Shown here piece by piece: positions 11,575 to 33,068 of a stretch of DNA of 33,981 nucleotides. Positions within the stretch are counted from its first letter, which is position 1. Every line of letters begins with the position of its first letter. The translations under genes were made by a program, and so were the position numbers. The notes under the pieces are model-generated. The model was given only the letters and a program-made list of their open reading frames with translations, was not told the DNA's origin and did not search any database. The DNA lies in the NCBI GenBank assembly GCA_030625965.1, contig DAOUPV010000019.1, positions 1-33,981 on the forward strand, read 5' to 3'. Origin of the DNA: Clostridia bacterium. GTDB taxonomy: Bacteria; Bacillota; TC1; UBA5767.

Positions 11575-11598
11575 ACGTATTTCCTCCCTTCCCAATAT

Positions 11599-11868
11599 TT
11601 AGATGATGAAACGCAAGATGTCCTCGTAGAGTCCCAAGGTAAAGCTGTGCATCTCCTCAAGAATCCAAGAACCAAAAACGAGAAGTGACAAGAACACCAC
11701 CACGATCTTTGGTACGAAAGCCATGGTCGGCTCATTGATCTGTGTGGTAGCCTGGAACAAGGATACGATGAATCCAATGACCAGCGCTCCCAGCAGCATA
11801 GGGGAAGATACCTTGAGGATGACCGTTACGGCCTCCTTAATGATGATGACTACTTCTTGATTGTTCAT
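11599..11868 (-). CDS. fliQ: FliQ, export gate protein
   Basis: FliQ is a small two-helix membrane protein of the FliP5-Q4-R1 export gate complex. The 89-residue length is standard. The first membrane helix contains LKVSSPMLLGALVIGFIVSLFQATTQINE, with the conserved Q-A-x-T-Q-I-x-E segment, followed by TMAFVPKIVVVFLSLLVFGSWILEEM. The SD AGGAGG precedes the ATG. It sits between fliP (8 bp upstream) and flhA (24 bp downstream). Confidence 0.97.
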   Translation of the reverse strand: MNNQEVVIIIKEAVTVILKVSSPMLLGALVIGFIVSLFQATTQINEPTMAFVPKIVVVFLSLLVFGSWILEEMHSFTLGLYEDILRFII

Positions 11869-11876
11869 CGTTCCTC

Positions 11877-12701
11877 CTAGACAAAGCTGCGGATCAAAGT
11901 CTCAAACAAAAGGTTCCATCCGTCCACCAGGACAAACAGCAGAATCTTGAACGGCAGTGAGATGGTAATCGGTGGAATCATCATCATACCCATGGACATC
12001 AGCACGCTGGCTACGATCATATCCACCACGATGAACGGGATGTAGATGAGAAATCCCATTGTGAAGGCCTTCTTCAGCTCACTCGTGATAAAAGCCATCA
12101 TAACCACAACGGTCGGAGTTTCCTCCAACGACTGGGGCCTGCCTTGACCGTGCAGTTCCAGGAAGAAATTTATGGTCTCAGGATCTGTCTGGGCTTGGCT
12201 GAACATGAATTCCTTCAAGGGTTCAACCGCCAGATCCAATGCTTCCTCAGTTCCGATTTCTCCTTCCATATAAGGCGTATATGCCTCGTCCCGTATGGTG
12301 CCGATGACCGGCGACATGATAAAGAATGTCATAATTAGCGCGATACCGATCAGTATCTGGTTGGGTGGTGTCTGCTGTGTACCCATGGCATTCCTGGTAA
12401 AGGAGAGTGCAATAAGCACCCTGGGGAACGCACTGGCCGTCATGATAATGGCCGGTACGAAGGTGAGCAGTGTCATCACCACTAGCAATCGCACGATATC
12501 CGACGTGTTGGTGCCCTGGTTGATGAAATCGTTCACCACCGAAGGGCTGGCCCAGGCGGCCCGGCCTCCATACACAAGCATCCCGGGAAGCATCAGGGCC
12601 ACCCTGGTGCCCAATCTTCTTATGCTAAGCCGGTTTTCGGCCGATATACTGCTCGAGCAGCGTCTTGAAAGGATGTTCCCCTTCTTCTGATACGTTTTCA
12701 T
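11877..12701 (-). CDS. fliP: FliP, export gate protein
   Basis: FliP forms the core of the export gate with FliQ and FliR. It carries FliP signatures: LLVVMTLLTFVPAIIMTASAFPRVLIALSFTRNAMGTQQTPPNQILIGIAL and, near the C-terminus, AFTMGFLIYIPFIVVDMIVASVLMSMGMMMIPP. A cleavable signal-like segment ends at about RAAWA before SPSV. The start is uncertain. The ATG at 12699-12701 has an excellent GGGAGG SD but lies 77 bp inside fliO and gives a long n-region. TTG at 12612-12614 or GTG at 12600-12602 would give a short signal peptide but have poor SDs. Confidence 0.94.
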   Translation of the reverse strand: MKTYQKKGNILSRRCSSSISAENRLSIRRLGTRVALMLPGMLVYGGRAAWASPSVVNDFINQGTNTSDIVRLLVVMTLLTFVPAIIMTASAFPRVLIALSFTRNAMGTQQTPPNQILIGIALIMTFFIMSPVIGTIRDEAYTPYMEGEIGTEEALDLAVEPLKEFMFSQAQTDPETINFFLELHGQGRPQSLEETPTVVVMMAFITSELKKAFTMGFLIYIPFIVVDMIVASVLMSMGMMMIPPITISLPFKILLFVLVDGWNLLFETLIRSFV

Positions 12702-12957
12702 GCAAATCCTCCCGCGCCACACTACCTAATCTCTCTATACCCTGTTCACTCACACTTAATATGACAATCTCTTCGCCGATTTCAACCAATTCGATCCATT
12801 TGCCGTTCTGCAATGCCAATCGATCGATGGACTGCATGTACCGGCTCTTACGTACGAAATGGTTCCCTTTTCGAAGCTGCTTGCCGCTCCTACTCATAGC
12901 AAACATCAGCAGTCCGAACAGCAGCAGGCCCGCCAGGGCCCTGATTATTGAATCCAT
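12625..12957 (-). CDS. fliO: FliO, export gate assembly protein
   Basis: FliO helps assemble the FliP ring. The 110-residue product has one N-terminal membrane helix (IIRALAGLLLFGLLMFAMSRS), a basic region, and the FliO core (MQSIDRLALQNGKWIELVEIGEEIVILSVSEQGIERLGSV). Poor conservation is normal in this family, so position between fliN and fliP carries weight. Its 3' end overlaps the predicted fliP start. Confidence 0.9.
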   Translation of the reverse strand: MDSIIRALAGLLLFGLLMFAMSRSGKQLRKGNHFVRKSRYMQSIDRLALQNGKWIELVEIGEEIVILSVSEQGIERLGSVAREDLHENVSEEGEHPFKTLLEQYIGRKPA

Positions 12958-12965
12958 AGCCCCTC

Positions 12966-13283
12966 CTATTCGCTTAGGATATGCGTGATACGGATTCCGT
13001 AGGCATCCGCTAGGATGACCACCTCGCCTTTGGCCAGATATGTCCCGTTGACCACCACGTCCATATTGTCACCGGCAAGGCGGTCCAATTCGATCACACT
13101 GCCAACCTTGAGACCTGCGACCTCGCCGACCTTCTTGTCTATTCGCCCAAGTTCCACGCAGAGCTCAACGTCGACCTCATCCAGGAATCCGATGTCCGAC
13201 GCTTCATGGCTCGGTTCGATTCCCTTGATTTCTTCAAACATTACTTTACTTATTCTTTGGGGCTTGTTACCGTTTCCGTTCAT
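12966..13283 (-). CDS. fliN: FliN, flagellar switch protein
   Basis: FliN is the C-ring component at the cytoplasmic base of the motor. The 105-residue product has a short N-terminal tail, then a complete SpoA/FliMN_C domain: FLDEVDVELCVELGRIDKKVGEVAGLKVGSVIELDRLAGDNMDVVVNGTYLAKGEVVILADAYGIRI. No CheC-like or FliM-middle domain is fused to it, so this is a true FliN and not FliY. The ATG at 13281-13283 has GAGGA five bases upstream; a TTG four codons earlier is less likely. FliM, which normally lies between fliL and fliN, is absent from this junction and from the window. Confidence 0.94.
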   Translation of the reverse strand: MNGNGNKPQRISKVMFEEIKGIEPSHEASDIGFLDEVDVELCVELGRIDKKVGEVAGLKVGSVIELDRLAGDNMDVVVNGTYLAKGEVVILADAYGIRITHILSE

Positions 13284-13295
13284 AAGTCCTCGCAA

Positions 13296-13736
13296 TCAAT
13301 GGGTGATGAATTCTTCGAAATAAACGTTCGTTATGGACTGAATACCAATCTGCTTTTCTATGCCGGAGATAACACCGAGGCTTAATTGGTCCAATATGTC
13401 GTCCTGGCGGTAATCGGTCTCGTCATAACTCCTGAGCGTTTCATTGATAATGTTGCGAACACGGGAGTCGTTCTTCTCCAGCAATGGTAGTTCCTCTGCA
13501 TCTTGCAGTTGGAACACCATACCACACTTGACGAACTTTTTACTGTTCTTGATGTTGGTCGTGATACTGCTGTCCAGTTTGTAAATGTACAGTTCTACTG
13601 GCTCTTCGCTCAGTTCCTCTGGTTGGATGTTCGGACCCTTGACCAGATCCGTGACCACCAGTACAGTCACACCTCCGAAGAGGATGACCACCGAGAGCAG
13701 CACTACCAACAATATGAGTAATATCCTTCTTTTCAT
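13296..13736 (-). CDS. fliL: FliL, stator-associated basal body protein
   Basis: FliL is a single-pass membrane protein that surrounds the MotB part of active stators. The 146-residue product has an N-terminal basic stretch and membrane helix (MKRRILLILLVVLLSVVILFGGVTVLV), then the periplasmic FliL domain with YKLDSSITTNIKNSKKFVKCGMVFQL and a C-terminal segment with GIQSITNVYFEEFITH, close to the family's usual V-x-x-V-Y-F-x-x-F-V ending. It sits 18 bp after motB and just before fliN. Confidence 0.94.
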   Translation of the reverse strand: MKRRILLILLVVLLSVVILFGGVTVLVVTDLVKGPNIQPEELSEEPVELYIYKLDSSITTNIKNSKKFVKCGMVFQLQDAEELPLLEKNDSRVRNIINETLRSYDETDYRQDDILDQLSLGVISGIEKQIGIQSITNVYFEEFITH

Positions 13737-13754
13737 ATGTATATCCTTTTCAAC

Positions 13755-14567
13755 TTAAGTATCCAACCGCTTGATCAGCACGATGTCAGTCCTTCGGTTC
13801 TTGGCTCTTCCTTCAGGGGTGTCGTTACTGTCAACCGGATTGTATTCCCCATATCCCATAGGGACCAGTTTTCTGGGTTCGAACCCTCCTTTGTACTTAA
13901 AGAAATACAAAACGCTGAGTGAACGTTCCAGCGATAGCTCGAAATTATCCCTAAATCGCGCTGTGGAAATGGGCAGATTATCCGTATTACCCTCCATGAT
14001 GATCTTGTCCAGCACATCGTCATAACCCTGGACGATGTCCACGATCTCAACCAGCGTCTGCTGGGCGCTTTCCGAAAGACGGGCATCGCCTGATGCGAAG
14101 AGCAGGTTGTCCGATAGCCGCAACCGAATTTCCGTTTTGGACCGGATGATTTCCAGGTTCATCTCGTCCCCAGCATTGACATCCTGCAAGAATCCGTAGA
14201 GTTCCTCGAAACGCGCATTTACCATCTCAAACTCAGCTTCACCCGGGCCCTCGTTCCCCTCAACAGGTTGGTCCACGGGTTTTTCTGGCTCTATCACTAG
14301 TTCTTCCTCAGGGGGGGCCTGATCCCAGGGCTCATCCCCATCATCGAGCAGACTGCTCTGGTCCTCTAGGATAGATATTTCACCCCCCATATCCGTCAGA
14401 ATGCTCTCCCCTGCGAAGGATTCGACAATCTCCTGCCACTTGGCCGCATTGATTTCAGAAAAGGAGAACAGCAGTACGAAGAAGGCCAACAGCAGCGTCA
14501 CTACGTCACTGTATGTGGTTATCCAATCGTTCTCCCCGGAATCCTCCGGTCTCTTCTTACGCTTCAT
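13755..14567 (-). CDS. motB: MotB, stator protein with peptidoglycan-binding domain
   Basis: MotB anchors the stator to peptidoglycan and carries the ion-binding aspartate. The 270-residue product has a basic N-terminus and the channel helix (DWITTYSDVVTLLLAFFVLLFS) with the conserved Asp at residue 21. An acidic, proline-rich linker of about 60 residues follows, then an OmpA-like domain (MEGNTDNLPISTARFRDNFELSLERSLSVLYFF, with MGYGEYNPVDSNDTPEGRAKNRRTDIVL). It overlaps motA by 11 bp. Ion specificity (H+ or Na+) cannot be read from the sequence by eye. The linker is unusually rich in Glu and Pro. Confidence 0.96.
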   Translation of the reverse strand: MKRKKRPEDSGENDWITTYSDVVTLLLAFFVLLFSFSEINAAKWQEIVESFAGESILTDMGGEISILEDQSSLLDDGDEPWDQAPPEEELVIEPEKPVDQPVEGNEGPGEAEFEMVNARFEELYGFLQDVNAGDEMNLEIIRSKTEIRLRLSDNLLFASGDARLSESAQQTLVEIVDIVQGYDDVLDKIIMEGNTDNLPISTARFRDNFELSLERSLSVLYFFKYKGGFEPRKLVPMGYGEYNPVDSNDTPEGRAKNRRTDIVLIKRLDT

Positions 14568-15360
14568 TCATGTCCACCTGCGCAGTTTCCGCCGATTCGC
14601 GATCCTTCTTGTCCCGCATGTTCTCCTCGACGTAGGTCTTAAGCTTCTCCTCAATCATCAGGGGACTTTCCCCTGCCTGGATTGCCATGATGCCCTCCAG
14701 AATCAAATACTTAAAGCCAGCTTCCCGATCGCTCTTGAATTTGAGTTTGCCCGCCAAAGGCAGGAAAACCATATTGGCCAGGAAAGATCCATAGAAGGTA
14801 GTAATCAAAGCTACACCCATGGTAGGACCCAATGTGCTGACATCATCCAGATTCTTTAGCATCAAGATCAGGCCGATCAATGTACCGATCATACCAAAGG
14901 CCGGCGAGTACTTACCGAGCGTCTTCAGCATACCTTCTCCTTCCGAGTGACGATCCGTCATGTTCTCGATTTCCAGCTGCATGATACGCTCGGTCATGGA
15001 TGGGTCGTTACCGTCCACAAGAAGTAAGACGCCTTTCTTAAGATACAAATTGTCCAACCCGTCCACCAGCCGTTCCATGGCTAATAGGCCGTCCCGTCTG
15101 GATACATAGGCCAGTTCACAAATCTGCTCAATCGTGCGCCCTACGTCATAGCGCTCCTCGAAAAAGGCCTTGCGCAAGACGCGCATCAGATTCTTTATTC
15201 TGTCCAAAGGATAACTAAGCATGAAGGCTGCACAGGTTCCCCCGAATACAATCAGGAACGATGAGGTATCCCAGAAGGTGCTTATTGGTCCTTTGGACAG
15301 GATGGCGATCAGGATGAGCAGAATACCTCCGCCCATCCCAAGTACTGTTGATAGATCCAT
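14557..15360 (-). CDS. motA: MotA, stator channel protein
   Basis: MotA is the four-helix stator subunit whose cytoplasmic loop pushes on FliG. The product is 267 residues from the ATG at 15358-15360, one base after the flbD stop and downstream of a GGAGG inside flbD. The TM segments and MotA/TolQ signature are clear: GTCAAFMLSYPLDRIKNLM, then LKTLGKYSPAFGMIGTLIGLILMLKNLDDVSTLGPTMGVALITTFYGSFLANMVFLP. An in-frame Met 28 codons upstream lies inside flbD and gives no family similarity. Confidence 0.96.
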   Translation of the reverse strand: MDLSTVLGMGGGILLILIAILSKGPISTFWDTSSFLIVFGGTCAAFMLSYPLDRIKNLMRVLRKAFFEERYDVGRTIEQICELAYVSRRDGLLAMERLVDGLDNLYLKKGVLLLVDGNDPSMTERIMQLEIENMTDRHSEGEGMLKTLGKYSPAFGMIGTLIGLILMLKNLDDVSTLGPTMGVALITTFYGSFLANMVFLPLAGKLKFKSDREAGFKYLILEGIMAIQAGESPLMIEEKLKTYVEENMRDKKDRESAETAQVDMNEA

Positions 15361-15361
15361 C

Positions 15362-15577
15362 TCAGTCCTCCACTTCTCCAGGCTGCCTGAGCAGATGCAG
15401 CATGCCCGGCAACCGCTGTTCGCGGATGGCCTGCATGATCTCACGGGCGCTTTCGCACACGATATATTTGCTTCCGTTGCTTAGTTGAATTACCGTATCA
15501 GGCACCTCCTCGATCATCTCGATGGACTGGCTGTTGAGGTAAAACTCCTTACGGTTCATACGTGTCAGTTTAATCAT
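15362..15577 (-). CDS. flbD: FlbD/SwrD family protein
   Basis: A 71-residue FlbD-family protein; the Bacillus subtilis homologue SwrD boosts stator power and swarming. It starts MIKLTRMNRKEFYLNSQSIEMIEEVPDTVIQLSNGSKYIV, the nearly invariant family pattern (MIxLTRxNGxxFxLNxDxIExIExxPDTxIxLxxGxKxxV), followed by EIMQAI. It lies between flgE and motA. This matches SwrD's role as a stator helper and the usual Clostridia order. Confidence 0.95.
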   Translation of the reverse strand: MIKLTRMNRKEFYLNSQSIEMIEEVPDTVIQLSNGSKYIVCESAREIMQAIREQRLPGMLHLLRQPGEVED

Positions 15578-15609
15578 CTCAATATTATCCTTCCAGTTCC
15601 GGATTCAGA

Positions 15610-16842
15610 TTAACGCTTCAGGTTCACTAATTCTTGCAGCACCTCATCCGATGTGGTTATGATCTTGGAATTAGCTTGGAATCCACGCTGGGCCACAATC
15701 ATCTCAGTGAATTCCCGGGACAGGTCCACATTGGACATCTCCAGAGAGTTCGAGGAAATGGAACCTCGACCGTCCGCACCTGCGGCACCTAACAAAGCGT
15801 CGCCTGAGTTCCATGAAGTGGCGTACAGATTGCCACCCATCTTCTCCATACCTTGGGGGTTGGTTACCGTAGCCAGCGCAATGGTGGCCACATGGTTGTC
15901 CCTACCGTTGGAGAAATTGCCGATGATGCTGCCCTCGGAATCGATACCCATACCGATCAGGTTGCCGGCTGGATATCCGTCAGGACTACAGAACAATGAG
16001 CTGACCCCGCCATACTGGGTGAACTTCTCTGGATTGAAAACGATGTTCGCACCGGTGATGTCCACTGCTGATGCGCCATTATTAAAGGTGATGCTGATAT
16101 CATCTAGGTTTTGGCTCACAAAAACACCTTCCTCGTTAAATACGATTTCGCCGTCACCACCCGACATGGAGTCGATTTCCGCATCAACGGAGCTGAAGGC
16201 ACAATCATAGTTGTCGGGCGAGGTCCGGTCAAAGGAGATCGTGATGGTGTGTGATTCTCCCAGGGAATCGTATATAGTCATGTTGGATTCGATGTGATCG
16301 GCTCCTTCACTGTCGATGTTGCCTTCGAAGCCAAGTGATGTGGTTTCGCTTGCCGCCATGTTTAGGCTGGACAGATCGATGGTTTCCAGAGGCTGGGTGG
16401 TGTCGATGGATGATGCTGTGCCTTTGTTCCATCCCTGGACCTTTTCGCCGCTGACTGTAACCAGGTTGCCGGCTGAGTCGATGCTGAAATTGCCGGCCCG
16501 GGTGAAGAGGTTGCTGGTTCCATCACTGACTACGAAGAACCCTTCGCCGTCGATGGACAGGTCGTTGGGATTGTCAGTGCTCTGTTTGTTACCGTTGGTA
16601 TAGTTGGTCGATATGCTCCCAATTGAGGTCCCCAAACCCACCTGGTAGGGATTGATCCCGCCCGTACCTTCCTCCGAAGGTGACTGGGAGGTGGAGATGG
16701 TTTGGCTCAAGACCTCCTGAAAGGTTACTGAAGAGCTCTTGTAAGCGACCGTGTTTACATTGGCGATGTTATTACCGATAACATCCAGTTTCTGTTGATG
16801 CACGCGCAAGCCGGATACTCCGGCATACATAGATCTAAGCAT
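15610..16842 (-). CDS. flgE: FlgE, hook protein
   Basis: FlgE polymerises into the hook joining rod and filament. The 410-residue product has the rod/hook N-terminal motif (MLRSMYAGVSGLRVHQQKLDVIGNNIANVNTVAYKS), the FlgE/F/G motif (LSIDGEGFFVVSDGTSNLFTRAGNF) and the C-terminal motif (ISSNSLEMSNVDLSREFTEMIVAQRGFQANSKIITTSDEVLQELVNL). Length is typical of a single-domain-insert hook protein. A 73-bp gap separates it from the upstream small gene, with an AAAGGAG SD near the ATG. Confidence 0.97.
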   Translation of the reverse strand: MLRSMYAGVSGLRVHQQKLDVIGNNIANVNTVAYKSSSVTFQEVLSQTISTSQSPSEEGTGGINPYQVGLGTSIGSISTNYTNGNKQSTDNPNDLSIDGEGFFVVSDGTSNLFTRAGNFSIDSAGNLVTVSGEKVQGWNKGTASSIDTTQPLETIDLSSLNMAASETTSLGFEGNIDSEGADHIESNMTIYDSLGESHTITISFDRTSPDNYDCAFSSVDAEIDSMSGGDGEIVFNEEGVFVSQNLDDISITFNNGASAVDITGANIVFNPEKFTQYGGVSSLFCSPDGYPAGNLIGMGIDSEGSIIGNFSNGRDNHVATIALATVTNPQGMEKMGGNLYATSWNSGDALLGAAGADGRGSISSNSLEMSNVDLSREFTEMIVAQRGFQANSKIITTSDEVLQELVNLKR

Positions 16843-16915
16843 ATTCTCTCCTTTAAGAGAGGTGTGGCAGGCCCGTCTGGCGTTCGGGGTCTGTTAGCTT
16901 CCATAATCAGTCCAG

Positions 16916-17287
16916 CTATCTGTTGACCACACCGTCTACATTCGTAAAAACTTTGCCCTTCATGCTGTCCATTGCAGTTACAATGGTCCTTGAAGAGACA
17001 TTGGCAATATATACAAAATTCCCGGTCACGATGACCGGTGTCTTCATGCCCTTTTCCGAGGCGATATCCAACGCTTCCTCAATCTTACCCATTTCTTCTT
17101 GGTCTAGATTGATATTGCGTTCCTGGATGCGCTCGCTGGCATGTTTGGAAAACTTGACACCTTGGTTCTTCCTTACGGACTGATCCAGCACTTTCTGGAA
17201 CTGGCCCTCAGGGTGAACCTTCGTTTTCTGCTTAACTGCGCTCTCCTGCAGAGACCGTATGCGCAACATTTCGATTGAGTTACTCAT
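16916..17287 (-). CDS. Small flagellar operon protein (TIGR02530 type)
   Basis: A 123-residue protein between flgD and flgE, the place occupied in many Clostridia and bacilli by the TIGR02530 family of unknown function. The diagnostic core is visible: VKFSKHASERIQERNINLDQEEMGKIEEALDIASEKGMKTPVIVTGNFVYIANVSSRTIVTAMD. The family name comes from recall of this SxHAxxRIxxR pattern. The ATG at 17285-17287 overlaps the flgD stop by 8 bp and has GAGGTG four bases upstream; longer in-frame starts lie inside flgD. Role unknown, presumably hook assembly given its neighbours. Confidence 0.88.
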   Translation of the reverse strand: MSNSIEMLRIRSLQESAVKQKTKVHPEGQFQKVLDQSVRKNQGVKFSKHASERIQERNINLDQEEMGKIEEALDIASEKGMKTPVIVTGNFVYIANVSSRTIVTAMDSMKGKVFTNVDGVVNR

Positions 17288-17654
17288 GGCGCACCTCAAT
17301 GATGTCATCCACATCCAGGCTGTATTCGTCCACGCTTAGCTTGAGCTTGTCTCCCTGAATGCTGACGGCTTCCACAACACCCTCAATGATCTGATTGTTC
17401 CTCTCGGCCTGTACTTGCTTACCGATCAGGTTATACACACTGAGCCGTGCCACCTCATCCTTGAGACTTTGAATCTCCTCCAACATAGAAAACTGGCTGG
17501 TCTGTGATATGAACTCGTTGTCCTCCATGGGAGAAAGCGGGTCCTGATACTTCATCTGGGTCACCAGTAACTGGAGAAAAAACTCCTTGTCGATTTTACT
17601 TTCAGTTTCCACACTGGTCGTGAATCCCTGAGCACCTACAGCTGATACTTCCAT
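17280..17654 (-). CDS. flgD: FlgD, hook cap/scaffold protein
   Basis: FlgD caps the growing hook and guides FlgE assembly. The 124-residue product is the short Firmicute form. It has the N-terminal FlgD signature (KEFFLQLLVTQMKYQDPLSPMEDNEFISQTSQFSMLEEIQSL) and a small C-terminal domain (YNLIGKQVQAERNNQIIEGVVEAVSIQGDKLKLSVDEYSLDVDDIIEV). The longer FlgD_ig and FlgD_tudor domains of Proteobacteria are reduced. It follows fliK with a good GGAGGTG SD. Confidence 0.96.
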   Translation of the reverse strand: MEVSAVGAQGFTTSVETESKIDKEFFLQLLVTQMKYQDPLSPMEDNEFISQTSQFSMLEEIQSLKDEVARLSVYNLIGKQVQAERNNQIIEGVVEAVSIQGDKLKLSVDEYSLDVDDIIEVRHE

Positions 17655-17666
17655 CCTTTCACCTCC

Positions 17667-18926
17667 TTAGATCACGATATTAATACCTGTGCCGTCGATT
17701 TCCTGATTTTGTTCTTCCTCCGGCGTTTCCACACTGTAGCCACTAACATCTGCCTTTTCCTTCGCACCCTGATGGGTCTGGGATTCTCCATCTGTCATGT
17801 TCTGCTGCATCATGCCGGATTGGTTGAATTGGTGCATCAGTGATGATTCGGCCACTTCGGGTCTTAGTGTATCCACGATGATCTGGTCAACCTTGATCAT
17901 CCGCTCGGAGAGCAGATTGGCTATCTCCTCGATCCTGGGAGCCAACAACTTCTTCACCGACTGCTTTTGAGCACTGATCCTAGCGACACAGCCGGCCTCG
18001 GTCTTCTGGATATCTATCCTCAGTTCCCCCAGGTACTCCGGTTCCAACCTGACCCGCAGATATTCACCCTTGTCCCATCTGGCATTTTCAATGCTCTTTG
18101 CCATCTGTTGCACGATCTGGTTCCTGTCAGGAATCGTCTCCGCATCAGCAACAAATTCTCCTGATACCGGTTGGGGTTCCAGCTTGATCTCGACCTCGCG
18201 TTTGTCCAAGTTCAGATTCTGAACCATGGCTCTTTGCAGTGGGAACTCTTCTCTCTTCACGTGGTCCGACACGACCATTCCCTTGGGCACGCTCTCTTTC
18301 AGCGCTCTCCGGGGTCCGTGTTGTGACGCCTGGTCTGGGATCAGCGTCCATTGTCCCGGCGGCAAGGTTTTGGTACTCTCTCTGTTTGAAACCTGGACTT
18401 CCGAGAAGGTCTGCTGCAACAAGTGTAACCGCTGCACCTTGTCAGGCGGCTTCTCTGAGTCCGCGGCAACCATGGATATGGCCTGCCCCAGGGTTTCGTT
18501 CTTCAATCCTTCAGTGGCTACCTTTATCTCGGAACCCGGATCCTGAATCTGCAATCCGCATTCATTGTTCGCCTCTTCCAACACTGTTTCCGTTGGTTGG
18601 GTAAGGAGCCCTGACATCTGAATACCGAGAAGCATACGATCACTTGCGTCCATATCCTTCAATAAGTCCTCAGGCAGAAGCATATCTTCCTGAATCTGGC
18701 TTTGTTCCTGGGCTTTCGCCACGACTAGCGGTGTATCGAGTCCGTCCAGCAGGCTCAACGCTTCTTTAGAGACCAGGTCCTGGTTCTGCATGTTCTGGCT
18801 GAACAATTCGGCAAACACCTTGCCCTTATCCTTAGCCTTAACCATATCCGGCCCAATTCCCTCAGGCCGCCCTGCCATGACCGGCATCAGTGATGAAGCC
18901 ACCTCACAGCATACGTTACTGTTCAT
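17667..18926 (-). CDS. fliK: FliK, hook-length control protein
   Basis: FliK measures hook length and switches FlhB to late-substrate export. The 419-residue product has a long low-complexity, Gln/Glu-rich N-terminal part and a conserved C-terminal Flg_hook domain (GEYLRVRLEPEYLGELRIDIQKTEAGCVARISAQKQSVKKLLAPRIEEIANLLSERMIKVDQI). The ATG has an AAAGGAGGTG SD. It lies between the YlxF-type gene and flgD, the usual place. The N-terminal part cannot be assigned domains by eye, which is normal for FliK. Confidence 0.93.
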   Translation of the reverse strand: MNSNVCCEVASSLMPVMAGRPEGIGPDMVKAKDKGKVFAELFSQNMQNQDLVSKEALSLLDGLDTPLVVAKAQEQSQIQEDMLLPEDLLKDMDASDRMLLGIQMSGLLTQPTETVLEEANNECGLQIQDPGSEIKVATEGLKNETLGQAISMVAADSEKPPDKVQRLHLLQQTFSEVQVSNRESTKTLPPGQWTLIPDQASQHGPRRALKESVPKGMVVSDHVKREEFPLQRAMVQNLNLDKREVEIKLEPQPVSGEFVADAETIPDRNQIVQQMAKSIENARWDKGEYLRVRLEPEYLGELRIDIQKTEAGCVARISAQKQSVKKLLAPRIEEIANLLSERMIKVDQIIVDTLRPEVAESSLMHQFNQSGMMQQNMTDGESQTHQGAKEKADVSGYSVETPEEEQNQEIDGTGINIVI

Positions 18927-18961
18927 ATTCTCACCTCCTTTCCATATGTTATTGTTGTATC

Positions 18962-19531
18962 TTATTCCTGAACGCCTGAACTAAAGCGATCTGAAGCAAT
19001 TTCTGCTGCCAATTGGGGACTCAAGTTTTCCATAACGGAGGCTGCCTTGTCTTCCTTCAGCATGAAAATGATGTTGCGCACCAATTCCTTATCCTGCATG
19101 TTGCTTAAAAGTGTAGCCGCACCCTCGTCTTCCATTTCCTCGATAACCTCGGTAATCTCTGCGATGTTTCCGGACACTCCATAAAGGTCCTCTTCCATGG
19201 CCTCCAGCGCCGCTTGTCTCTGACCCAGTTCCTGTTCTTGGAGCAGTAGCGAACCTTCTCGCTCGTTCAGCTGGTTTTCCTTGACGCTTAGCCGTTCCTG
19301 CTCGCTCTTAATAACGGATTCTCTTTCCTGCAGTTGCCTAAGCACCTCAGGGTCCTCGGCTAGCGCTTCCTGTTCAACGGTTATGTTTTCCACGATCCGG
19401 GCAACCAGGTTATCCTTTACACCGCCCACATTCATGGCAAAGAGTCCGACTAGGATCAAAACGATGATGATCAGGCCGAAGCCTGCAAACAGTATCTTGT
19501 CAATGGTCCCCTTCTTGTCCTTTTTAGCCAT
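18962..19531 (-). CDS. ylxF: YlxF/MotE-type membrane protein
   Basis: A 189-residue protein with an N-terminal basic stretch and one membrane helix (KILFAGFGLIIIVLILVGLFAMNVGG), a long coiled coil (QEALAEDPEVLRQLQERESVIKSEQERLSVKENQLNEREGS and onward), and a C-terminal MgtE_N-like domain (LLSNMQDKELVRNIIFMLKEDKAASVMENLSPQLAAEI). This is the layout of MotE and of Bacillus subtilis YlxF, which normally sits between fliJ and fliK. Here it directly follows fliG after 22 bp, with fliH, fliI and fliJ absent. Probable function is as a stator or basal-body accessory; the symbol is by position. Confidence 0.85.
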   Translation of the reverse strand: MAKKDKKGTIDKILFAGFGLIIIVLILVGLFAMNVGGVKDNLVARIVENITVEQEALAEDPEVLRQLQERESVIKSEQERLSVKENQLNEREGSLLLQEQELGQRQAALEAMEEDLYGVSGNIAEITEVIEEMEDEGAATLLSNMQDKELVRNIIFMLKEDKAASVMENLSPQLAAEIASDRFSSGVQE

Positions 19532-19553
19532 ATGCTTCCTTTCCCTTCATCTC

Positions 19554-20561
19554 TTAACCGACCAGCTTGTCGTTGTCCCCTTTGCTTATGATGATCTCCT
19601 GTGTGCGCTCCATCTCCAAGATCTGGCTGACAATCTTCTGTTGTGCCTCCAAGACCTCGCCCAGCCTTACCTTGCCCAGCAAATCCATCTCCTGCTGCAG
19701 AATCTCGCTGACCCTCTGGGAGATGTTTTCGAATACCGTGCGCCTGACCACGTCGGTGGTGGACTTCAAGCCCATAGCCAGATCCTTGTTAGGAACTTTG
19801 GCCAGAACAACTTGAACCGTCTTGCGATCCAAATTGACGATGTCCTCGAAGATGAACATCTGCTTGCGGATCTCCTCAGCCATCTCCTCGTTTTCGATCT
19901 CCAAGGCATCGAAGATGCGTACCTCGGCTGACCTGTCGATGGCAGACAGGATATCGGCCGCTATGTTGATACCCATGGTGTCCGCGACGCTGTCAGGACC
20001 GAAGAAGGTGCTAATCCTGGATTTGATCTCCTCTTGCACCTGGTTTACAACCTCGGGTGATATCTTGCCGATCTTGGCGATTCTCTGGACAATATCCGCC
20101 TGTCGGTCCTCTTCCAGAGAAGCCAACACCGTTGCCGCCTGTTCCGAATCCATGTAGGTCATCACCAGGGCTAGCGTCTGGTTGCGTTCGAACTTCAGTA
20201 TATTTAACAATTCCCCTGCATCCACTTCATCCAGAAAGGAAAACGGTTTGTTCTGGTTATAGGAGGCAATCCTACCGATGATGTCCATGCATTTCTGGGT
20301 ACCCAGCGCTTCAGTGAGCACTTCCTTTGCGTAATCGATGCCGCCCCCGTTGATGTAGCCCTGAGCCAGGCACATCTCGTAGAATTCCAGAGCGATGCTG
20401 TTCTGCATCTCCTTGGTCACCGGTTTGTTGGTGGCGATATGATAGGTCAAACGCTGAATCTCGTCTTCATTCAGTTGCTTGAAGATTTCAGCCGATTTAT
20501 TCTTGTCGATGGAAACCAGCAGCAAAGCCGCTTTTTCCACCCCTGATAAGGCTATCTCCAT
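19554..20561 (-). CDS. fliG: FliG, flagellar motor switch/torque protein
   Basis: FliG joins the MS ring to the C ring and receives torque from MotA. The 335-residue product has all three domains: FliF-binding N-terminus (VEKAALLLVSIDKNKSAEIFKQL, GGGIDYAKEVL), the middle armadillo repeat, and the torque domain (EEMAEEIRKQMFIFEDIVNLDRKTVQVVLAKV, KVRLGEVLEAQQKIV). Residues equivalent to E. coli K264, R281 and R297 are kept, while D288 D289 appear as QE. The middle-domain FliM-binding motif EHPQ is ERNQ (residues 125-128), an unusual change. It starts immediately after the fliF stop. Confidence 0.97.
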   Translation of the reverse strand: MEIALSGVEKAALLLVSIDKNKSAEIFKQLNEDEIQRLTYHIATNKPVTKEMQNSIALEFYEMCLAQGYINGGGIDYAKEVLTEALGTQKCMDIIGRIASYNQNKPFSFLDEVDAGELLNILKFERNQTLALVMTYMDSEQAATVLASLEEDRQADIVQRIAKIGKISPEVVNQVQEEIKSRISTFFGPDSVADTMGINIAADILSAIDRSAEVRIFDALEIENEEMAEEIRKQMFIFEDIVNLDRKTVQVVLAKVPNKDLAMGLKSTTDVVRRTVFENISQRVSEILQQEMDLLGKVRLGEVLEAQQKIVSQILEMERTQEIIISKGDNDKLVG

Positions 20562-22160
20562 TTAATGACCTTCCTCCAAATAGCCCCGCGGGGCGTTTTT
20601 TTCTTCTTTCAACCAAAGACGCAACACCTGGGCTGCGCTCGCCGGGCTGGCTTCAATGATACTCCCAATTTCCTCCAGCACCTTCTGGTCTTTCTCCATG
20701 CTATCCATGTTTTCCAGGATCCCATCACGCTTCAGCTCCAGTTGTATCTCATCTTCACTGAGTCTCCTCGGCTCGTCATAGACGCTATCCTGTGCAGTAT
20801 AGATTTCCTGTACCACCGCTTTACGTGACTTGTTGAACTGTCGCAAGATCAGGATACCCAGCACCATCACCACCAGCAGAGCCACCACAATGATGATGGT
20901 CTCCTCAGATATGGGGAATCCTGCTGTCGTGCTTTCCAAGTCCTGCTGCACCTGCACCATATGTTCTTCGAAGGCAGTGAAGTTCATCTGATTCACACTG
21001 ATCTTGGCCGGCGCTATACCTACCGCCGTGGCCACGATGGCCTGTACATCATTCAACACGCTCTGGTCGACAGCTTCTCCATTGATGAGCACGGATAAGG
21101 AGAGGTCTTCAATGCCCCCCTGCGCCTCGTCGATGGTCTGTCTGAGCTCGTTGACACGGTAGTTGACCACCTTCTGGAAGCGATTGTTCATGCTATCACT
21201 TTCCACACTGTAGGTGCTGACGCTGTCGCTGCTGTTGGAGGATGAATCCGTCAACTTATCGTTCAGTTCCTCGATCAGGTAGGGAATCCCTTGGTCATCC
21301 ACCACCGGGGAATACTCGATCACTTCACTGCTCACCCGGTCCATGTTTACGATGGCATTAACGCCAACCTTGATGTTGTTTACCCCGAACACCGGCTCGA
21401 AAAGATAGAGTACCTTGGCTTCAATTCCCTTCTCAATTTCCTGTTCGAAGTCCAAAACTCCGCTGGCGGACTGTCCGTATCCATCATCGGTCAGAGGAAG
21501 GAGATCCCTCCAATCCTGGTCGATGACCGCTACGTTTTCCTGCTTCAGTCCGGATACACTGGTGGTCAGCAAACGCTGTACCGCCCGGATCTGGTCAACA
21601 CTGGGCTGGAAATTATTCTCCAGGTCCAATACGACGCAAGCACTGATACCTGCAGCTTCCTCATCAAAGCGGAAGACGCTGTCCTCTTCCATGGTGATAT
21701 TGACTACCGCGTTCTCAATGCCGTTCAGCATGGATATGGTGCTCCCCAAACGTTCCTGCAGCTGATAGACCAGCATGATCTTCTTATCCTGGTTGGATGT
21801 GGCGAAGCTGATGCTGTTCATATACAGATCATAGTTGAGACCCGTCTTGGGGTAGCCCTGCATGGCCAGTTGGATGCGGACCTGCTCTTCTTGCTTGGCA
21901 TCCACCAACACGGAACCATTTCCGTCCACAGTGGTCTTGACCCCCAGATCCTGCAGTACCGACAGGACTTCCTGAGATTCACCGGATTCCAGATCCGAAT
22001 AAAGGATGGTGTATTCGGTACGCCCCAAAAGGAATGAGATCAGAGACAGACACACCAGCAACAGGATGGAAAAAAGAACAACTCTTCTTCTGACCTTAGG
22101 TTGCAATGATGACCAGGATGATTTAATTTTATTTATGGTTTCTTGGACTTGCTGGGGCAT
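20562..22160 (-). CDS. fliF: FliF, MS-ring protein
   Basis: FliF forms the MS ring in the membrane, the first structure assembled. The 532-residue product has a first membrane helix (RRRVVLFSILLLVCLSLISFLLG), the YscJ/FliF domain (TEYTILYSDLESGESQEVLSVLQDLGVKTTVDGNGSVLVDAKQEEQVRIQLAMQGYPKTGLNYDLY), the C-terminal FliF domain (INVMDRV-like NIKVGVNAIVNMDRVSSEVIEYSPV), a second membrane helix (IIIVVALLVVMVLGILIL), and a FliG-binding tail (ASAAQVLRLWLKEEKNAPRGYLEEGH). All parts expected of FliF are present. Confidence 0.97.
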   Translation of the reverse strand: MPQQVQETINKIKSSWSSLQPKVRRRVVLFSILLLVCLSLISFLLGRTEYTILYSDLESGESQEVLSVLQDLGVKTTVDGNGSVLVDAKQEEQVRIQLAMQGYPKTGLNYDLYMNSISFATSNQDKKIMLVYQLQERLGSTISMLNGIENAVVNITMEEDSVFRFDEEAAGISACVVLDLENNFQPSVDQIRAVQRLLTTSVSGLKQENVAVIDQDWRDLLPLTDDGYGQSASGVLDFEQEIEKGIEAKVLYLFEPVFGVNNIKVGVNAIVNMDRVSSEVIEYSPVVDDQGIPYLIEELNDKLTDSSSNSSDSVSTYSVESDSMNNRFQKVVNYRVNELRQTIDEAQGGIEDLSLSVLINGEAVDQSVLNDVQAIVATAVGIAPAKISVNQMNFTAFEEHMVQVQQDLESTTAGFPISEETIIIVVALLVVMVLGILILRQFNKSRKAVVQEIYTAQDSVYDEPRRLSEDEIQLELKRDGILENMDSMEKDQKVLEEIGSIIEASPASAAQVLRLWLKEEKNAPRGYLEEGH

Positions 22161-22163
22161 GGA

Positions 22164-22457
22164 TTATACCTGCATTCTCATGATTTCTTTGTAGGCATCG
22201 ACGACCTTGTTGCGCATCTGCATGGTTAGCTGCAATCCTACGCTGGCTTTTTCGGATGCGATGAGGAACTCGTGGAAATCCTCGCTGGATCCGCTTAGGA
22301 GGCCTTCGATGCTTCCGTTGACCTCTGCGATGTTCTCGTCTATCTGTGACAGGGATTTTTCCAAAATGTCACCAAAATCGGCACCGGCTGCCTCGGTTTT
22401 TCTGGATATGATTTCACTTGTGCTGGGCATTATGCCCTTAATGGCTGATATGTCCAT
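22164..22457 (-). CDS. fliE: FliE, MS ring-rod junction protein
   Basis: FliE connects the MS ring to the proximal rod and is the first substrate of the export gate. The 97-residue product has the conserved C-terminal part (ASEKASVGLQLTMQMRNKVVDAYKEIMRMQV), matching the family pattern with L-x-L-x-x-x-V-R-N-K-x-x-x-A-Y-x-E-I-M-x-M-x-V. It lies between flgC and fliF, 3 bp before the latter. Confidence 0.96.
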   Translation of the reverse strand: MDISAIKGIMPSTSEIISRKTEAAGADFGDILEKSLSQIDENIAEVNGSIEGLLSGSSEDFHEFLIASEKASVGLQLTMQMRNKVVDAYKEIMRMQV

Positions 22458-22472
22458 GACTTATTCCTCCGC

Positions 22473-22913
22473 TTATTCCAAGATGCGCATAGCCCTGGTG
22501 AACAAGGACTTGGTTGCTTCCATGACCGTGGCATTGGCCTCGTAGGCCCTGGTCGCCGAAAGCATCTCGATCATCTCCTCGGTAGTATCGATATTGGGCC
22601 GCCGCACGTATCCATCCGCATCGGCCAACGGATGCTCTGGATCGTATTCCAACTTGTAAGGCTCACCCTTGGCATCTTCCACCTGAAGCGAAACCCCGCT
22701 GCCTTCCGCAGGAGCACTGAAGCGTGTAAGCACCTGAGAGAAGGAAACTTCCTGTTTGGATTCGGCCATCAGGGCCACCTTCCTTTGATACGGCTGTAGG
22801 TTGTCGGTGATTACCGTCTCCGCATTGGCAATATTCTGGGCGACGATTTCCATTCGTTTCTTCTGGGCATACAGGCCGCTAGCACTGATGTCCATCGCTC
22901 TAAGAAAGCTCAT
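22473..22913 (-). CDS. flgC: FlgC, proximal rod protein
   Basis: FlgC is a proximal rod protein. The 146-residue product has the rod N-terminal motif (MSFLRAMDISASGLYAQKKRMEIVAQNIANAETV), a central YKLEYDPEHPLADADGYVRRPNIDTTEEMIEMLSATRAYEANATVMEATKSLFTRAM, and the usual length. The DADGYVRxPN segment is diagnostic for FlgC. It follows flgB with a 3-bp gap. Confidence 0.97.
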   Translation of the reverse strand: MSFLRAMDISASGLYAQKKRMEIVAQNIANAETVITDNLQPYQRKVALMAESKQEVSFSQVLTRFSAPAEGSGVSLQVEDAKGEPYKLEYDPEHPLADADGYVRRPNIDTTEEMIEMLSATRAYEANATVMEATKSLFTRAMRILE

Positions 22914-22916
22914 ATC

Positions 22917-23294
22917 CTATCCTTTCGACTCTTCGATAACAGTCCTGAGCAGCTCCAATTGGTTACGTAGCGCCTCTGTGGCCAAATCGTACTTCATCTT
23001 GTTCACCGATAGGGACACCATTTCGGTCTCCACATTCACGTTATTTCCGTTCTCCTTGATGCTGAGGCCTGTACGGTTCAGGATCGAAAACCTTATGTCA
23101 CTGGCTTCGATCGGCTGGACGCTGTCCTTCTTATCCACGTATTTCTGCAGCATCTGTTCGAAATCGAGGTCCTTGGCCTTGTAGTCGGACGATTCGGCGT
23201 TGGCGATATTGTTGGATATGATCTCATTGCGTTTCCATAGACCTTCCAGGCTCTTCTGGAGCAGATCAATATTCTTGTTTATGTTATCAATCAT
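22917..23294 (-). CDS. flgB: FlgB, proximal rod protein; first gene of the early operon
   Basis: FlgB is a proximal rod protein and the first gene of the main flagellar operon, preceded by a c-di-GMP riboswitch. The 125-residue product starts MIDNINKNIDLLQKSLEGLWKRNEIISNNIANAESSDYKAKDLDFEQ, the FlgB pattern, and ends with SLSVNKMKYDLATEALRNQLELLRTVI. The ATG at 23292-23294 has GGAGGTG four bases upstream; a GTG four codons earlier would overlap this SD. A leader of nearly 400 bases separates it from the proposed sigma-A promoter. Confidence 0.96.
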   Translation of the reverse strand: MIDNINKNIDLLQKSLEGLWKRNEIISNNIANAESSDYKAKDLDFEQMLQKYVDKKDSVQPIEASDIRFSILNRTGLSIKENGNNVNVETEMVSLSVNKMKYDLATEALRNQLELLRTVIEESKG

Positions 23295-23352
23295 ATGCAC
23301 CTCCACAGTATATTATTTTGTGTATCACGGTTTCAAAACCCTGCGTTTTTCC

Positions 23353-23375: not shown

Positions 23376-23462
23376 CTCCTTCGGTAACCGGCTACCCTAT
23401 ACATGCGTACGTAGGCCCTTGGCTTTGCGTCCCAAGCTTTTGCTTGGTTTGCCTTTTTCGGT
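23376..23462 (-). ncRNA. Cyclic-di-GMP-I (GEMM-I) riboswitch upstream of flgB
   Basis: The minus strand carries the GEMM-I signature in order: GGCAAACC (23446-23453), a hairpin CCAAGC-AAAA-GCTTGG (23432-23447), GGGACGCAAAGCC (23421-23433), a second variable hairpin starting CCTACG and ending TAGGGTAGCC (about 23391-23417), and the terminal GGTTACCGAAGG (23378-23389). This binds cyclic di-GMP. In Clostridioides difficile the same class in the same position ahead of flgB acts as a transcriptional OFF switch. Here the first loop is AAAA, not the usual GNRA tetraloop. A 7-bp closing pair ACTTTTC (23463-23469)/GAGGAGT (23372-23378) abuts a T7 tract. Aptamer identity is clear; the expression platform is inferred. 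Confidence 0.93.
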
Positions 23463-23504
23463 GAAAAGTCATCTTAAACAGACAAGACTAATAAACCTTG
23501 TTAT

Positions 23505-23873: not shown

Positions 23874-24644
23874 GTGTCTTTCATAAGCAGCGCAACCAGC
23901 CAGATAGATTTTTTCATCCTGATTCTGCTACGCATTTCGGGATTCATATTCACCTCACCGGTTTTCGGCAGACGGGAAATTCCCAATATCTTGAAGATCG
24001 GATTCTGCCTCTACCTGTCCTATATGCTGTTGCTCTCGGGTCTTGTACCCCAGATGGAAATGACAGCCGGTTTAGGCCCCTATCTGCTCACAGGTGTGCT
24101 GGAACTGTCTAAAGGTATGTTGCTGGGTTGGATCAGTATGCTATTCTTTTCCTTGTTCATGACTGCCGGACAGCTGATTGATATCCAGATCGGCTTCCAG
24201 ATGGGCGGAATCCTAGATCCCCAATTCGGTACCAAGACACCGCTCACGGGTAACCTGTTGAACATCCTGGTGTTCGTGGTCTTCTTTCAGGTCAACGCGC
24301 ATCTGGATATGCTGGCTATCCTGATCGGTTTTTTCAGAGCCACACCCATCGGCAGTCTAATCGGTATCCAGCAGATCTATGCTCTGGTTGTCAATGCATT
24401 CGTGTTCACCTTCTTCCTAGGTGTGAAGATTGCCCTGCCCATGATCCTGATCATCCTCTTCGTCGAGGTGGTGCTGGGCGTAATCGTCAAATTCATGCCC
24501 CAGATGAATGTTTTCGTCATCGGTATCCCGTTCAAGATTTTAGTTGGTCTGGTCTCTCTCCACTACCTGATCGGGCCGATCGGACACTACCTGGACTTCA
24601 TTTTCCAATCCATGCACGATTATATGAGCGGACTGTATCTCTAA
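23874..24644 (+). CDS. fliR: FliR, export gate protein
   Basis: FliR is the single-copy subunit closing the FliP5-Q4-R1 export gate. The 256-residue product has multiple membrane helices and FliR features: FFILILLRISGFIFTSPVFGRREIPNILKIGFCLYLSYMLL, then GQLIDIQIGFQMGGILDPQFGTKTPLTGNLLNILVFVVFFQVNAHLDML, and near the end MPQMNVFVIGIPFKILVGLVSLHYLIGPI. The start is GTG at 23874-23876 with AAGGAG four bases upstream. It is on the plus strand, divergent from the main operon, whereas it normally lies between fliQ and flhB/flhA. It is followed 13 bp later by flhB. Confidence 0.96.
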   Translation: MSFISSATSQIDFFILILLRISGFIFTSPVFGRREIPNILKIGFCLYLSYMLLLSGLVPQMEMTAGLGPYLLTGVLELSKGMLLGWISMLFFSLFMTAGQLIDIQIGFQMGGILDPQFGTKTPLTGNLLNILVFVVFFQVNAHLDMLAILIGFFRATPIGSLIGIQQIYALVVNAFVFTFFLGVKIALPMILIILFVEVVLGVIVKFMPQMNVFVIGIPFKILVGLVSLHYLIGPIGHYLDFIFQSMHDYMSGLYL

Positions 24645-24657
24645 GGGAGGTGACGCC

Positions 24658-25731
24658 ATGTCAGGGGAAAAGACAGAAAAACCTACTCCAAAAAAGAAAC
24701 AGGACGCCCGCAAAGAAGGCAACGTCCTGAAAAGTACGGAGTTGAACAATGTCCTTACCTTGTTCGCTTCCCTGCTGGGCCTTGGCATGCTCTGGCCCCA
24801 GATGTCCCGTTCTCTCAAGGTATTTTTCATCGCCCTTCTCAGCGGAGGCTATGACTCCTTTTCTACATTGGACGGAAACTCACTGCACGCCTTGCTTCTC
24901 ATGAGCGGAAAGACATTCTTCTCGGTCGCAGCGCCTCTGCTCCTGCTATTGTTGGTAATCGGTATGGCCGTGAACTTCCTGCAGGTCGGTATCCTGTTCA
25001 CACCCAAAGCACTCAAACCCAAACTGGAGCGCATCAGCTTCTCCAAAGGCCTGAAAAGAATCTTCTCCATAACCACAGTCAAGAATCTGGTAAAATCCTT
25101 GTTGAAGATTCTGGCAACCGTGCTGCTGGGTTACCTGCTCTTAAAGCCCCTGATCATCAGGACTGTCTCCCTTTTGCCCGCCGACTTGTCGGCCCAGATC
25201 GAGTTTGGCGTCGCCAACATGTTACGCATCGGCAAGTCCCTGCTGATAGCCATGGCAGGCATCTCCGTCATAGACTACGCTTTTTCGTGGTTCGAGCACC
25301 AAAAGAAACTGAAGATGAGCAAACAGGAAGTAAAGGATGAGCACAAGAACATAGAGGGAAATCCGGAAATCAAAGCGAGGATCCGGAGCACCCAGCAAAA
25401 ATTCGCCCAGTCCCGTATGATGCAGCAGGTGCCCCGCTGTGACGTAGTAATCACCAACCCGACCCATTATGCCGTAGCCATTCTGTATGAGCAAGACAAG
25501 AGCCGGGCTCCTGTAGTCGTCGCCAAAGGCGCAGACCTCCTGGCCCTCAAAATCAAGGAAATTGCCAAGAAGAATAAGATCGATATTGTTGAAAGTAGGC
25601 AGCTGGCCCGTTCTCTCTACAGCACCACAGAACCAGGGCAGGAAATACCCATAGAGCTTTTCCAAGCCGTTGCTGAGATCCTAGCCTACATCTACGCTTT
25701 GAAGAAAAAGAAAAGGAGATCACGCCGATGA
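24658..25731 (+). CDS. flhB: FlhB, export substrate-specificity switch
   Basis: FlhB sits beside the export gate and self-cleaves to switch from hook to filament substrates. The 357-residue product starts MSGEKTEKPTPKKKQDARKEGNVLKSTELN, the family pattern. It has four membrane helices, and the cytoplasmic domain with the autocleavage motif NPTH at residues 267-270 (CDVVITNPTHYAVAILYE), the linker LKMSKQEVKDEHKNIEGNPEIKARIR, and the ending SRQLARSLYSTTEPGQEIPIELFQAVAEILAYIYALKKK. All catalytic features are present. It has an AGGGAGG SD after fliR and overlaps the next gene by 4 bp. Confidence 0.97.
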   Translation: MSGEKTEKPTPKKKQDARKEGNVLKSTELNNVLTLFASLLGLGMLWPQMSRSLKVFFIALLSGGYDSFSTLDGNSLHALLLMSGKTFFSVAAPLLLLLLVIGMAVNFLQVGILFTPKALKPKLERISFSKGLKRIFSITTVKNLVKSLLKILATVLLGYLLLKPLIIRTVSLLPADLSAQIEFGVANMLRIGKSLLIAMAGISVIDYAFSWFEHQKKLKMSKQEVKDEHKNIEGNPEIKARIRSTQQKFAQSRMMQQVPRCDVVITNPTHYAVAILYEQDKSRAPVVVAKGADLLALKIKEIAKKNKIDIVESRQLARSLYSTTEPGQEIPIELFQAVAEILAYIYALKKKKRRSRR

Positions 25732-27458: not shown

Positions 27459-29456
27459 CTAAAATGTGTTGTCATCCTCCAGTGGAATGATGTCCTCAGG
27501 CAAGAACTCATTCTGGCCTACAGCTTTTAGCTGTGCCACAGAGATATCGCTGTTCTTTCGCTTTGACTCTCTGGTGGAACGTACTTTCTTTTTAGCCGGT
27601 GCACTCTTCATTTGCGCTAAGCCTGTTTGCTGCATTTCCTTCTTCAATCCATGGATGATTGCATCCACCTGACTCATGTGCTTGTCCAGCTCACAGGCCT
27701 GAGCTTCCAGTTCCTCAGCAGCCGCAGCAGTCTCTTCAGCCGCCGAGGCATTGACCTGTACAGTGCTCTCCATGTTGCTCATGGCGAAAGATACCTGTTG
27801 CGCTCCCTTGGCCTGCTCTTCACTGGCATTGGAGATTTCCTTGATCAGTTCGGCAACCTTATCCAAGCGCTGCACAACTACTTCAAAGGCATTCTTGGCT
27901 CCAATACTGCGTTCAGCATCTGCCTTAGCATACTGTATGCGCTCCGCCAGGATTTCTTCTGTGTCATTGGCTGCCGCGGCACTCTTCTGAGCCAGATTTC
28001 TCACTTCCTCAGCTACCACAGCAAATCCCTGACCCGCCTCTCCGGCGCGGGCCGCTTCGACCGCCGCATTGAGTGCCAACATGTTGGTCTGGAAAGCGAT
28101 GTCGTCGATGACCTTGATGATCTTGAACATCTTTTTGCTGGCTTCATTGTTTTCATCAAGCCATTTGACCACTTCGCTGATCTGCTCGAATCCGTCCTTA
28201 GAAGCTTCCTGGGTTTCCAAGGTGACGTTCATAGCTTCTTTGGTATTTTCAGCGTTCAGCTGGATCATGGTAGTGGTCTCTTCCATGCTGGCCGAGGTCT
28301 CCTCGATGGAGGCGGCCTGCTCGTTCGAGCTGTCCGAGAGCTGTTGGCTGGAGTTGGCGAGCTGATCCGAGGCCGCACTGATGTGGCTGGTAGCCTGAGA
28401 CAGATCGTCGCTGATACCCGTCAGATCATTGCCGATCTTACGGATGAGCAGATAAAGCAAGATGATAGCGAGCAGCCCTACGATGGCACTAACGATAATG
28501 GCTGTTTTTAGCCCAGCATTTGCAGCCGCCTTGACTTCACTTTCCGGTACGACGACCCCAACAGCCCAGGTTGATCCGGTATCCGCAATTTGTATCGGTA
28601 CAATGGCCGACTCGTATGTCACACCATCCTCATCGAAACTAAATTCCTTGGGGTGGACGTCAAGGATAGCCTTCTCCATATTCGTCACTACATCGGCTGA
28701 AGCCACATCAACCAGATTCTGTCTCTGTAAATCCACATTCTTGTGAGATACGACCTGTCCTTGGTCAGTTACAAGGAAAGCATAGCCGCTATCCAGCATC
28801 TGAGTCTGCTGAACCGTAGCCACCAGATCATTAAGATAGAACTCCATACCCATGACACCGACCACTGCATCCCCAATCCAGATGGGCTCGTATACCCGGA
28901 ACGAATAACGCTTCTCGCCCACGATATCAGCCATGAAGGGCTCACCTACGACGGTCCTCTCGCTCTGTATGCATTTTTTATATTCCTCCGCCTGGCTGAT
29001 ATCCTCCATTTTGGCATATCCAAGCGTATCACCGAATTTGTATACATAGGGAACGAATCGTCCTGTTTCATCCGTGTAGGCACTGGTCGGTGTGCTTGCA
29101 TCACGACCATCGTAGGCATCCGGGTTCCAATAGGCGAAGGCACCGGAAATGTTGGCGCCATATGTCACTTCACGGGCAAACAGGCTAACGATATCCGCCC
29201 TGCTGGATTTGCCATATTCCGCCATCGCTCCGATTGAGTCGCCTAGCGTTTCAGTCATGGTGATGCCGGATTCGATAACCCTCGCTACTTCGCTCACTTG
29301 TCGTTCCGCATCAGTAAGCAGAAGCTCGGCAGACAGCTCACTGGTGGCATCAATATATGACCCGGCAAACATCCCTAGGATGATGGCCAGCCCAACTACG
29401 ATAACCAATGCAGTAGGAATGATGATTCTGGCTTTGATATTCAATGATTTAAACAT
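27459..29456 (-). CDS. mcp: Methyl-accepting chemotaxis protein with dCache-like sensor
   Basis: A 665-residue chemoreceptor. It has a first membrane helix (about 12-32) and a large extracytoplasmic region (about 35-315) of the dCache type ([54 protein letters not shown]). A second membrane helix (about 318-338) is followed by a signalling domain with the hairpin tip at about 451-488 ([20 protein letters not shown], then [12 protein letters not shown]). After the second helix I see no clear HAMP domain; the sequence goes almost directly into the [15 protein letters not shown] coiled coil. The tail ends [12 protein letters not shown], without an NWETF-type motif. The ATG overlaps the cheW stop by 8 bp. 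The ligand is unknown. Confidence 0.95.
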
Positions 29457-29949
29457 AGTCTGTTCTCCTTTGATCGTTAATGCTGGCCTCTTGTATCAAG
29501 AGTTCCTGCTCATCTGGGGCGATAATCCGATCCACGTTAAGAAGCCGAATCAAATCACCGTCCACGTTGCCAATGCCTTTTAGATATTCAATACCGTCTA
29601 GTTGTAGGCAGTCCGGCGGAGATATATTCACTGAACTGATCTTCAGCACTTCCTTAGCCGTATCGGCAACAAAACCACACAGTTGCATCTCATCGTCCTT
29701 TGGAATCTCCACAACGATCACGCTGGTCCGGTCATTGTATGCCTGTTCAGCCAATCCGAACCTAAGACGCAGATCGATGACCGGGATAATCTTACCCCTC
29801 AGATTGATTACTCCTTTCACATAATCCGACATCCCTGGGATGCGGGATACGTCCGGTATGCGAATAAGTTCCTTGACACTGGACAATTCTATGGCATACA
29901 ACTCATCCTGAAGTATGAAAGAAAGGTATTGCTCGTTCCTACTGATCAT
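29449..29949 (-). CDS. cheW: CheW, chemotaxis coupling protein
   Basis: CheW links chemoreceptors to the CheA kinase. The 166-residue product has the CheW core: [59 protein letters not shown], then [30 protein letters not shown] and ends [23 protein letters not shown] short tail ([21 protein letters not shown]) follows the domain. It overlaps mcp and follows cheB by 19 bp with a GGAGG-type SD. Confidence 0.96.
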
Positions 29950-29968
29950 ACTGACACCTCCTTATGAC

Positions 29969-33060: not shown

Positions 33061-33068
33061 GCCTCAGT

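Follow-up and report, generated by a model that had tools for sequence, protein, structure and literature searches.

Layout of the main flagellar locus

The window, by which we mean the whole 33,981-nucleotide stretch of DNA analyzed, is contig C132 of a Clostridia bacterium genome (G000) of 2.57 Mb in 148 contigs, which is 97.8% complete with an estimated contamination of 2.6%. Its minus strand carries flgB-flgC-fliE-fliF-fliG and, after 22 bp, a YlxF/MotE-type gene followed by fliK-flgD-(TIGR02530)-flgE-flbD-motA-motB-fliL-fliN-fliO-fliP-fliQ-flhA (Table 1). Past flhA, the same strand continues with a sigma factor gene, flgF/G-type genes, flgM, flgN, flgK, a FlgL/flagellin-like gene and fliW, on to flaG-fliD-fliS. 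The left end of the window (1-249, minus strand) cuts a flagellin gene and a second flagellin gene stands at the left end of contig C11 (G000:C11:32-442), which suggests that a repeat broke the assembly at the window's flagellin. Two open reading frames gave no Pfam match, one of 127 aa beside flhB (25728-26111, plus strand) and one of 106 aa beside fliS (338-658, minus strand). A search of the whole genome found no FlhF above the cut-off, only weaker matches of the kind expected of related SRP-type GTPases.

Table 1. Coordinates of flagellar, chemotaxis and riboswitch features; positions are those of the window unless another contig is given
Feature	Position	Strand	Evidence
fliO, fliP, fliQ, flhA (export gate)	9550..12957	-	Pfam
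Short FliN, 109 aa, the sole gene where fliM-fliY-cheY stand in most relatives	12966..13295	-	FliMN_C, 71.9 bits
motA, motB, fliL	13296..15444	-	Pfam
fliK, flgD, TIGR02530 protein, flgE, flbD (downstream part, normal Firmicutes order)	15362..18926	-	
YlxF/MotE-type protein, 189 aa	18962..19531	-	weak NCBIfam/Pfam matches (MgtE_N, FlbB-collar) and position
fliG-ylxF seam, 22 bp	19532..19553	-	sequence; site of fliH-fliI-fliJ in 40/40 relative loci
fliG, motor switch protein, divergent but complete	19554..20561	-	TIGR00207, 290 bits, E 2e-86; FliG_N, FliG_M and FliG_C all found
fliF, MS ring	20562..22160	-	TIGR00206, above cut-off
flgB, flgC, fliE (start of main flagellar operon)	22164..23306	-	TIGR01396, TIGR01395, TIGR00205
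c-di-GMP-I riboswitch aptamer, flgB operon leader	23380..23463	-	RF01051, 75.9 bits, E 3.1e-13, full length
fliR, flhB (remaining export gate), divergent from flgB operon	23874..25731	+	Bac_export_1, Bac_export_2
cheW, cheB, cheA, cheR, right end of window	29449..33887	-	Pfam
Last 12 bp of window (TTTAAAACTTTC), identical to first 12 bp of C114	33970..33981	.	end comparison
c-di-GMP-I riboswitch, head of displaced fliH operon	G000:C114:5251-5331	-	RF01051, 77.0 bits, full length

The initial annotation had singled out the junction of fliG and ylxF, reporting that the fliG stop and the YlxF-type start are 22 bp apart and that no product of the window has a FliI-like Walker A motif, and both observations hold. 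The seam contains the purine-rich ribosome site that precedes the ATG of the YlxF/MotE-type gene. Searching the window by tblastn with the genome's own FliH, FliI and FliJ returned zero matches, and no Walker A motif of a FliI-family ATPase was present, the sole Walker A motif in a long frame of the window lying within a chemoreceptor. The canonical order, with fliHIJ directly between fliG and ylxF, is thus not found in the window. Also absent from the window are fliM, fliY and cheY between fliL and fliO, their place in most relatives.

The same annotation had described fliG-fliH-fliI-fliJ as the usual order in Firmicutes, and comparison of the junction in relatives bears this out. In a sample of nearly one genome per family, read from tables, fliI follows fliG directly downstream, on the same strand and at a distance of ~0.6-1.3 kb, in every other FliG-encoding genome (46/46); one FliG divided between two contigs was counted by its C-terminal portion, and another, read as two adjacent frames, was included. 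Annotation in detail of 40 loci, a set that overlaps the 46 genomes and has the sister genus G003 in common with them, found the junction filled by fliHIJ in the order fliG-fliH-fliI-fliJ every time (40/40). The seam is not a product of chance, because all other compared genomes carry fliHIJ at that place, and its emptiness is, among the genomes compared, a rare break in a gene order strongly conserved in the phylum.

Several further features of this locus differ from those of relatives. The fliR-flhB pair stands apart from fliP-fliQ-flhA, nearly all relatives having fliR-flhB after fliQ. FliG scores 290 bits against its profile, compared with 390-486 in most relatives. Among named genomes, FliG matches were limited to two loci of distant Kineosporia (36% identity). 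The flagellar proteins form a long branch that is not grouped with the sister genus, and neither FliG nor FliM is encoded by the genus-mates G001 and G002; gain of the flagellar genes by transfer or fast evolution are both possible.

A second operon carrying the missing genes

The genome contains one intact fliH-fliI-fliJ set, on contig C114. The minus strand of this contig carries nifS-nifU, a strong terminator-like hairpin and then fliH-fliI-fliJ-fliM-fliY-cheY, which extends to the contig end. The gene content of this operon is exactly what the window lacks at two distinct sites. The genome contains a single true FliI (624.7 bits against a TIGR01026 cut-off of 379.5, full length), and all remaining matches to the FliI profile lie far below the cut-off, as expected of rotary ATPase subunits. 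FliH and FliM likewise occur as one copy each in the genome, that of FliH on C114, and FliJ on C114 was identified by Pfam. The FliI protein keeps 118 of the 119 columns that are near-invariant across 40 relatives, with intact Walker A (GSGVGKST), catalytic glutamate loop (LIGERGRE) and Walker B (LLMMDS) motifs, and it matches solved structures of FliI and type III ATPases. By these sequence features, it is an intact flagellar export ATPase, with hydrolysis and a role in export predicted. The longer CheC-FliN type FliY of this operon (G000:C114:599-1579) is encoded in addition to the short FliN of the window (12966-13295), and the flagellum may have two FliN-domain switch proteins.

Three features can be read directly from the DNA: fliHIJ are lacking at the seam, the second operon carries intact single copies, and each operon is headed by a riboswitch. 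The best explanation, to which we assign a probability of about 0.9, is an ordinary ATPase-equipped flagellum with a split gene cluster, in which fliHIJ moved as one block to a second operon. The initial annotation had preferred relocation of the ATPase complex as a unit, and fliH-fliI-fliJ do stand in order on C114; the displacement of fliM-fliY-cheY, the second riboswitch and the probable adjacency of the two contigs had escaped it.

The last 12 bp of the window are the first 12 bp of C114. Among 4,950 contig-end pairs, four share 141 bp, the usual assembler overlap in this assembly, the pair of window and C114 shares 12 bp and all others share at most 6 bp. The 12-mer was found only at the right end of the window and the left end of C114 in the 683 kb examined. 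The orientation also fits, as joining the contigs puts cheR-cheA-cheB-cheW after fliH-fliI-fliJ-fliM-fliY-cheY with all genes reading the same way, and fliM-fliY adjoin che genes in four relatives (the sister genus G003, G011, G056 and G193). On the basis of the unique overlap, the orientation and the che content, the window and C114 are probably chromosomal neighbors, which would probably place fliHIJ past the che genes, ~16-18 kb upstream of fliG. A real split with the two operons far apart on the chromosome, the 12-bp overlap being a coincidence, is unlikely: the overlap is indeed much shorter than the 141-bp overlaps of true neighbors in this assembly, but no pair apart from those four exceeds 6 bp, the 12-mer is restricted to these two ends, and orientation and che content agree with adjacency.

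The fragmented assembly and its contamination estimate could also suggest that C114 is a misbinned contaminant, in which case the organism of the window might lack fliHIJ or have them on a lost contig. We consider this highly improbable. Tetranucleotide use of the window and of C114 correlates with that of the background contigs at 0.947 and 0.948, respectively, compared with at most 0.79 for the loci of the 40 relatives. Separate trees of eight window proteins and of FliI plus FliM place both contigs in the same neighborhood of relatives (L132, L133, L125, L139 and L147), support for the exact sister group being weak in the window tree (0.48) and its identity differing between trees. No second FliG, FliI, FliH or FliM is present in the genome bin, the missing and present genes are exactly complementary, the contig ends overlap, and the same very rare split would have to exist in the contaminant as well.

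A flagellum that exports by proton motive force alone, which the initial annotation had raised as the other option, would fit the lack of fliHIJ in the window, and ATPase-independent export does work in Salmonella mutants in which proton motive force and substrate levels are raised (PMC4230889), but this reading is refuted, to near certainty, because intact single-copy fliH, fliI and fliJ, with the catalytic motifs of FliI conserved, are present in the same genome, which is the finding that the initial annotation had named as refuting it.

c-di-GMP-I riboswitches ahead of both operons

The flgB operon and the displaced fliH operon are each headed by a c-di-GMP-I riboswitch aptamer, both far above the RF01051 gathering score of 35. 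A terminator-like hairpin with a T run is predicted between the aptamer and fliH (C114:5165-5206); the fold of the flgB leader is less clear, and the fliH leader is the only one of the two with a predicted hairpin of this kind. The two aptamers show no particular resemblance to each other. Because each is more similar to other copies from the genus, the fliH-operon aptamer is probably not a recent copy of the flgB-operon aptamer, as judged by sequence similarity.

The genome carries 11 c-di-GMP-I riboswitches (Rfam), several of the others preceding genes for surface proteins or an HD-type signaling protein, as judged by translations. Closely spaced pairs occur on contigs C11, C12 and C141, the C11 and C141 pairs standing ahead of genes for putative surface proteins. 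About one quarter of the 40 relatives have a riboswitch near the start of the flagellar operon. Relative L246 (G056) has, in addition to the one near its operon start, c-di-GMP-I riboswitches at 12393-12477 and 18922-19001, just after fliM-fliY and further on. In the open-access literature, covered mostly by titles and abstracts, we found no description of a separate fliH operon with a c-di-GMP riboswitch.

The flgB switch of Clostridioides difficile is an off-switch that works by termination, and class I c-di-GMP switches can be on-switches elsewhere (PMC6366702). Because a c-di-GMP-I riboswitch heads both operons, the displaced block probably remains subject to the motile/sessile control that acts on the main operon. 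In the simplest model, high c-di-GMP would shut both operons together, and the export ATPase and switch proteins would still be made in step with the basal body. It is also conceivable, though we regard it as doubtful, that the differing riboswitch sequences and leaders, and possibly thresholds, allow production of the export ATPase and rotor switch to be turned on or held back independently of the basal body, providing a dosage checkpoint instead of simple co-regulation.

A split gene order compared with known systems

Under the relocation model, fliH-fliI-fliJ would have departed from between fliG and ylxF as a single block and would now head the second operon, which probably lies in the same locus, on its chemotaxis side. 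The move of fliM-fliY to the che side most likely came first, as in the sister genus, with fliHIJ joining later. This order of events is drawn from one sister genus, the genus-mates being without flagella and the genomes compared including no closer relative with the same split; an empty-site comparison in the flagellum-less genus-mates through nifS, which lies beside the fliH operon, gave best matches of only 46% identity, too distant for synteny to be read. The exporter would work in the normal way, FliH-FliI-FliJ docking both on FlhA and on the switch ring. The flagellum itself is a standard one, set apart by an unusual order of its genes and offering no new export mechanism, and the tempting lead of a natural ATPase-free flagellum is closed as wrong. 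The second riboswitch suggests how the parts of a split operon could stay co-regulated and offers a case in which regulatory re-coupling after a rearrangement can be tested.

Compared with the canonical Firmicutes flgB superoperon (flgB-flgC-fliE-fliF-fliG-fliH-fliI-fliJ-ylxF-fliK-...), the locus has the same genes, and these follow the same order before and after the seam. It differs in that fliHIJ and fliM-fliY-cheY form a second operon and that fliR-flhB, too, have been displaced and lie on the opposite strand. The sister genus (G003, L111 and L244) likewise has one c-di-GMP-I riboswitch before flgB, which in G003 heads an undivided operon, and fliM-fliY outside the main operon, there in the che cluster. 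In contrast to the present genome, its fliG-fliH-fliI-fliJ are contiguous, and no riboswitch was found in the che-fliM-fliY stretch of G003. A class I c-di-GMP riboswitch, Cd1, also lies in the flgB leader of C. difficile (PMC6366702), where one switch serves the early-gene operon, whereas here a second switch heads the split-off fliH operon. Finally, Campylobacterota also do not keep their flagellar genes in one cluster, but they spread them over ~30 loci (PMC9321776), compared with two or three blocks, probably in one locus, in the present genome.
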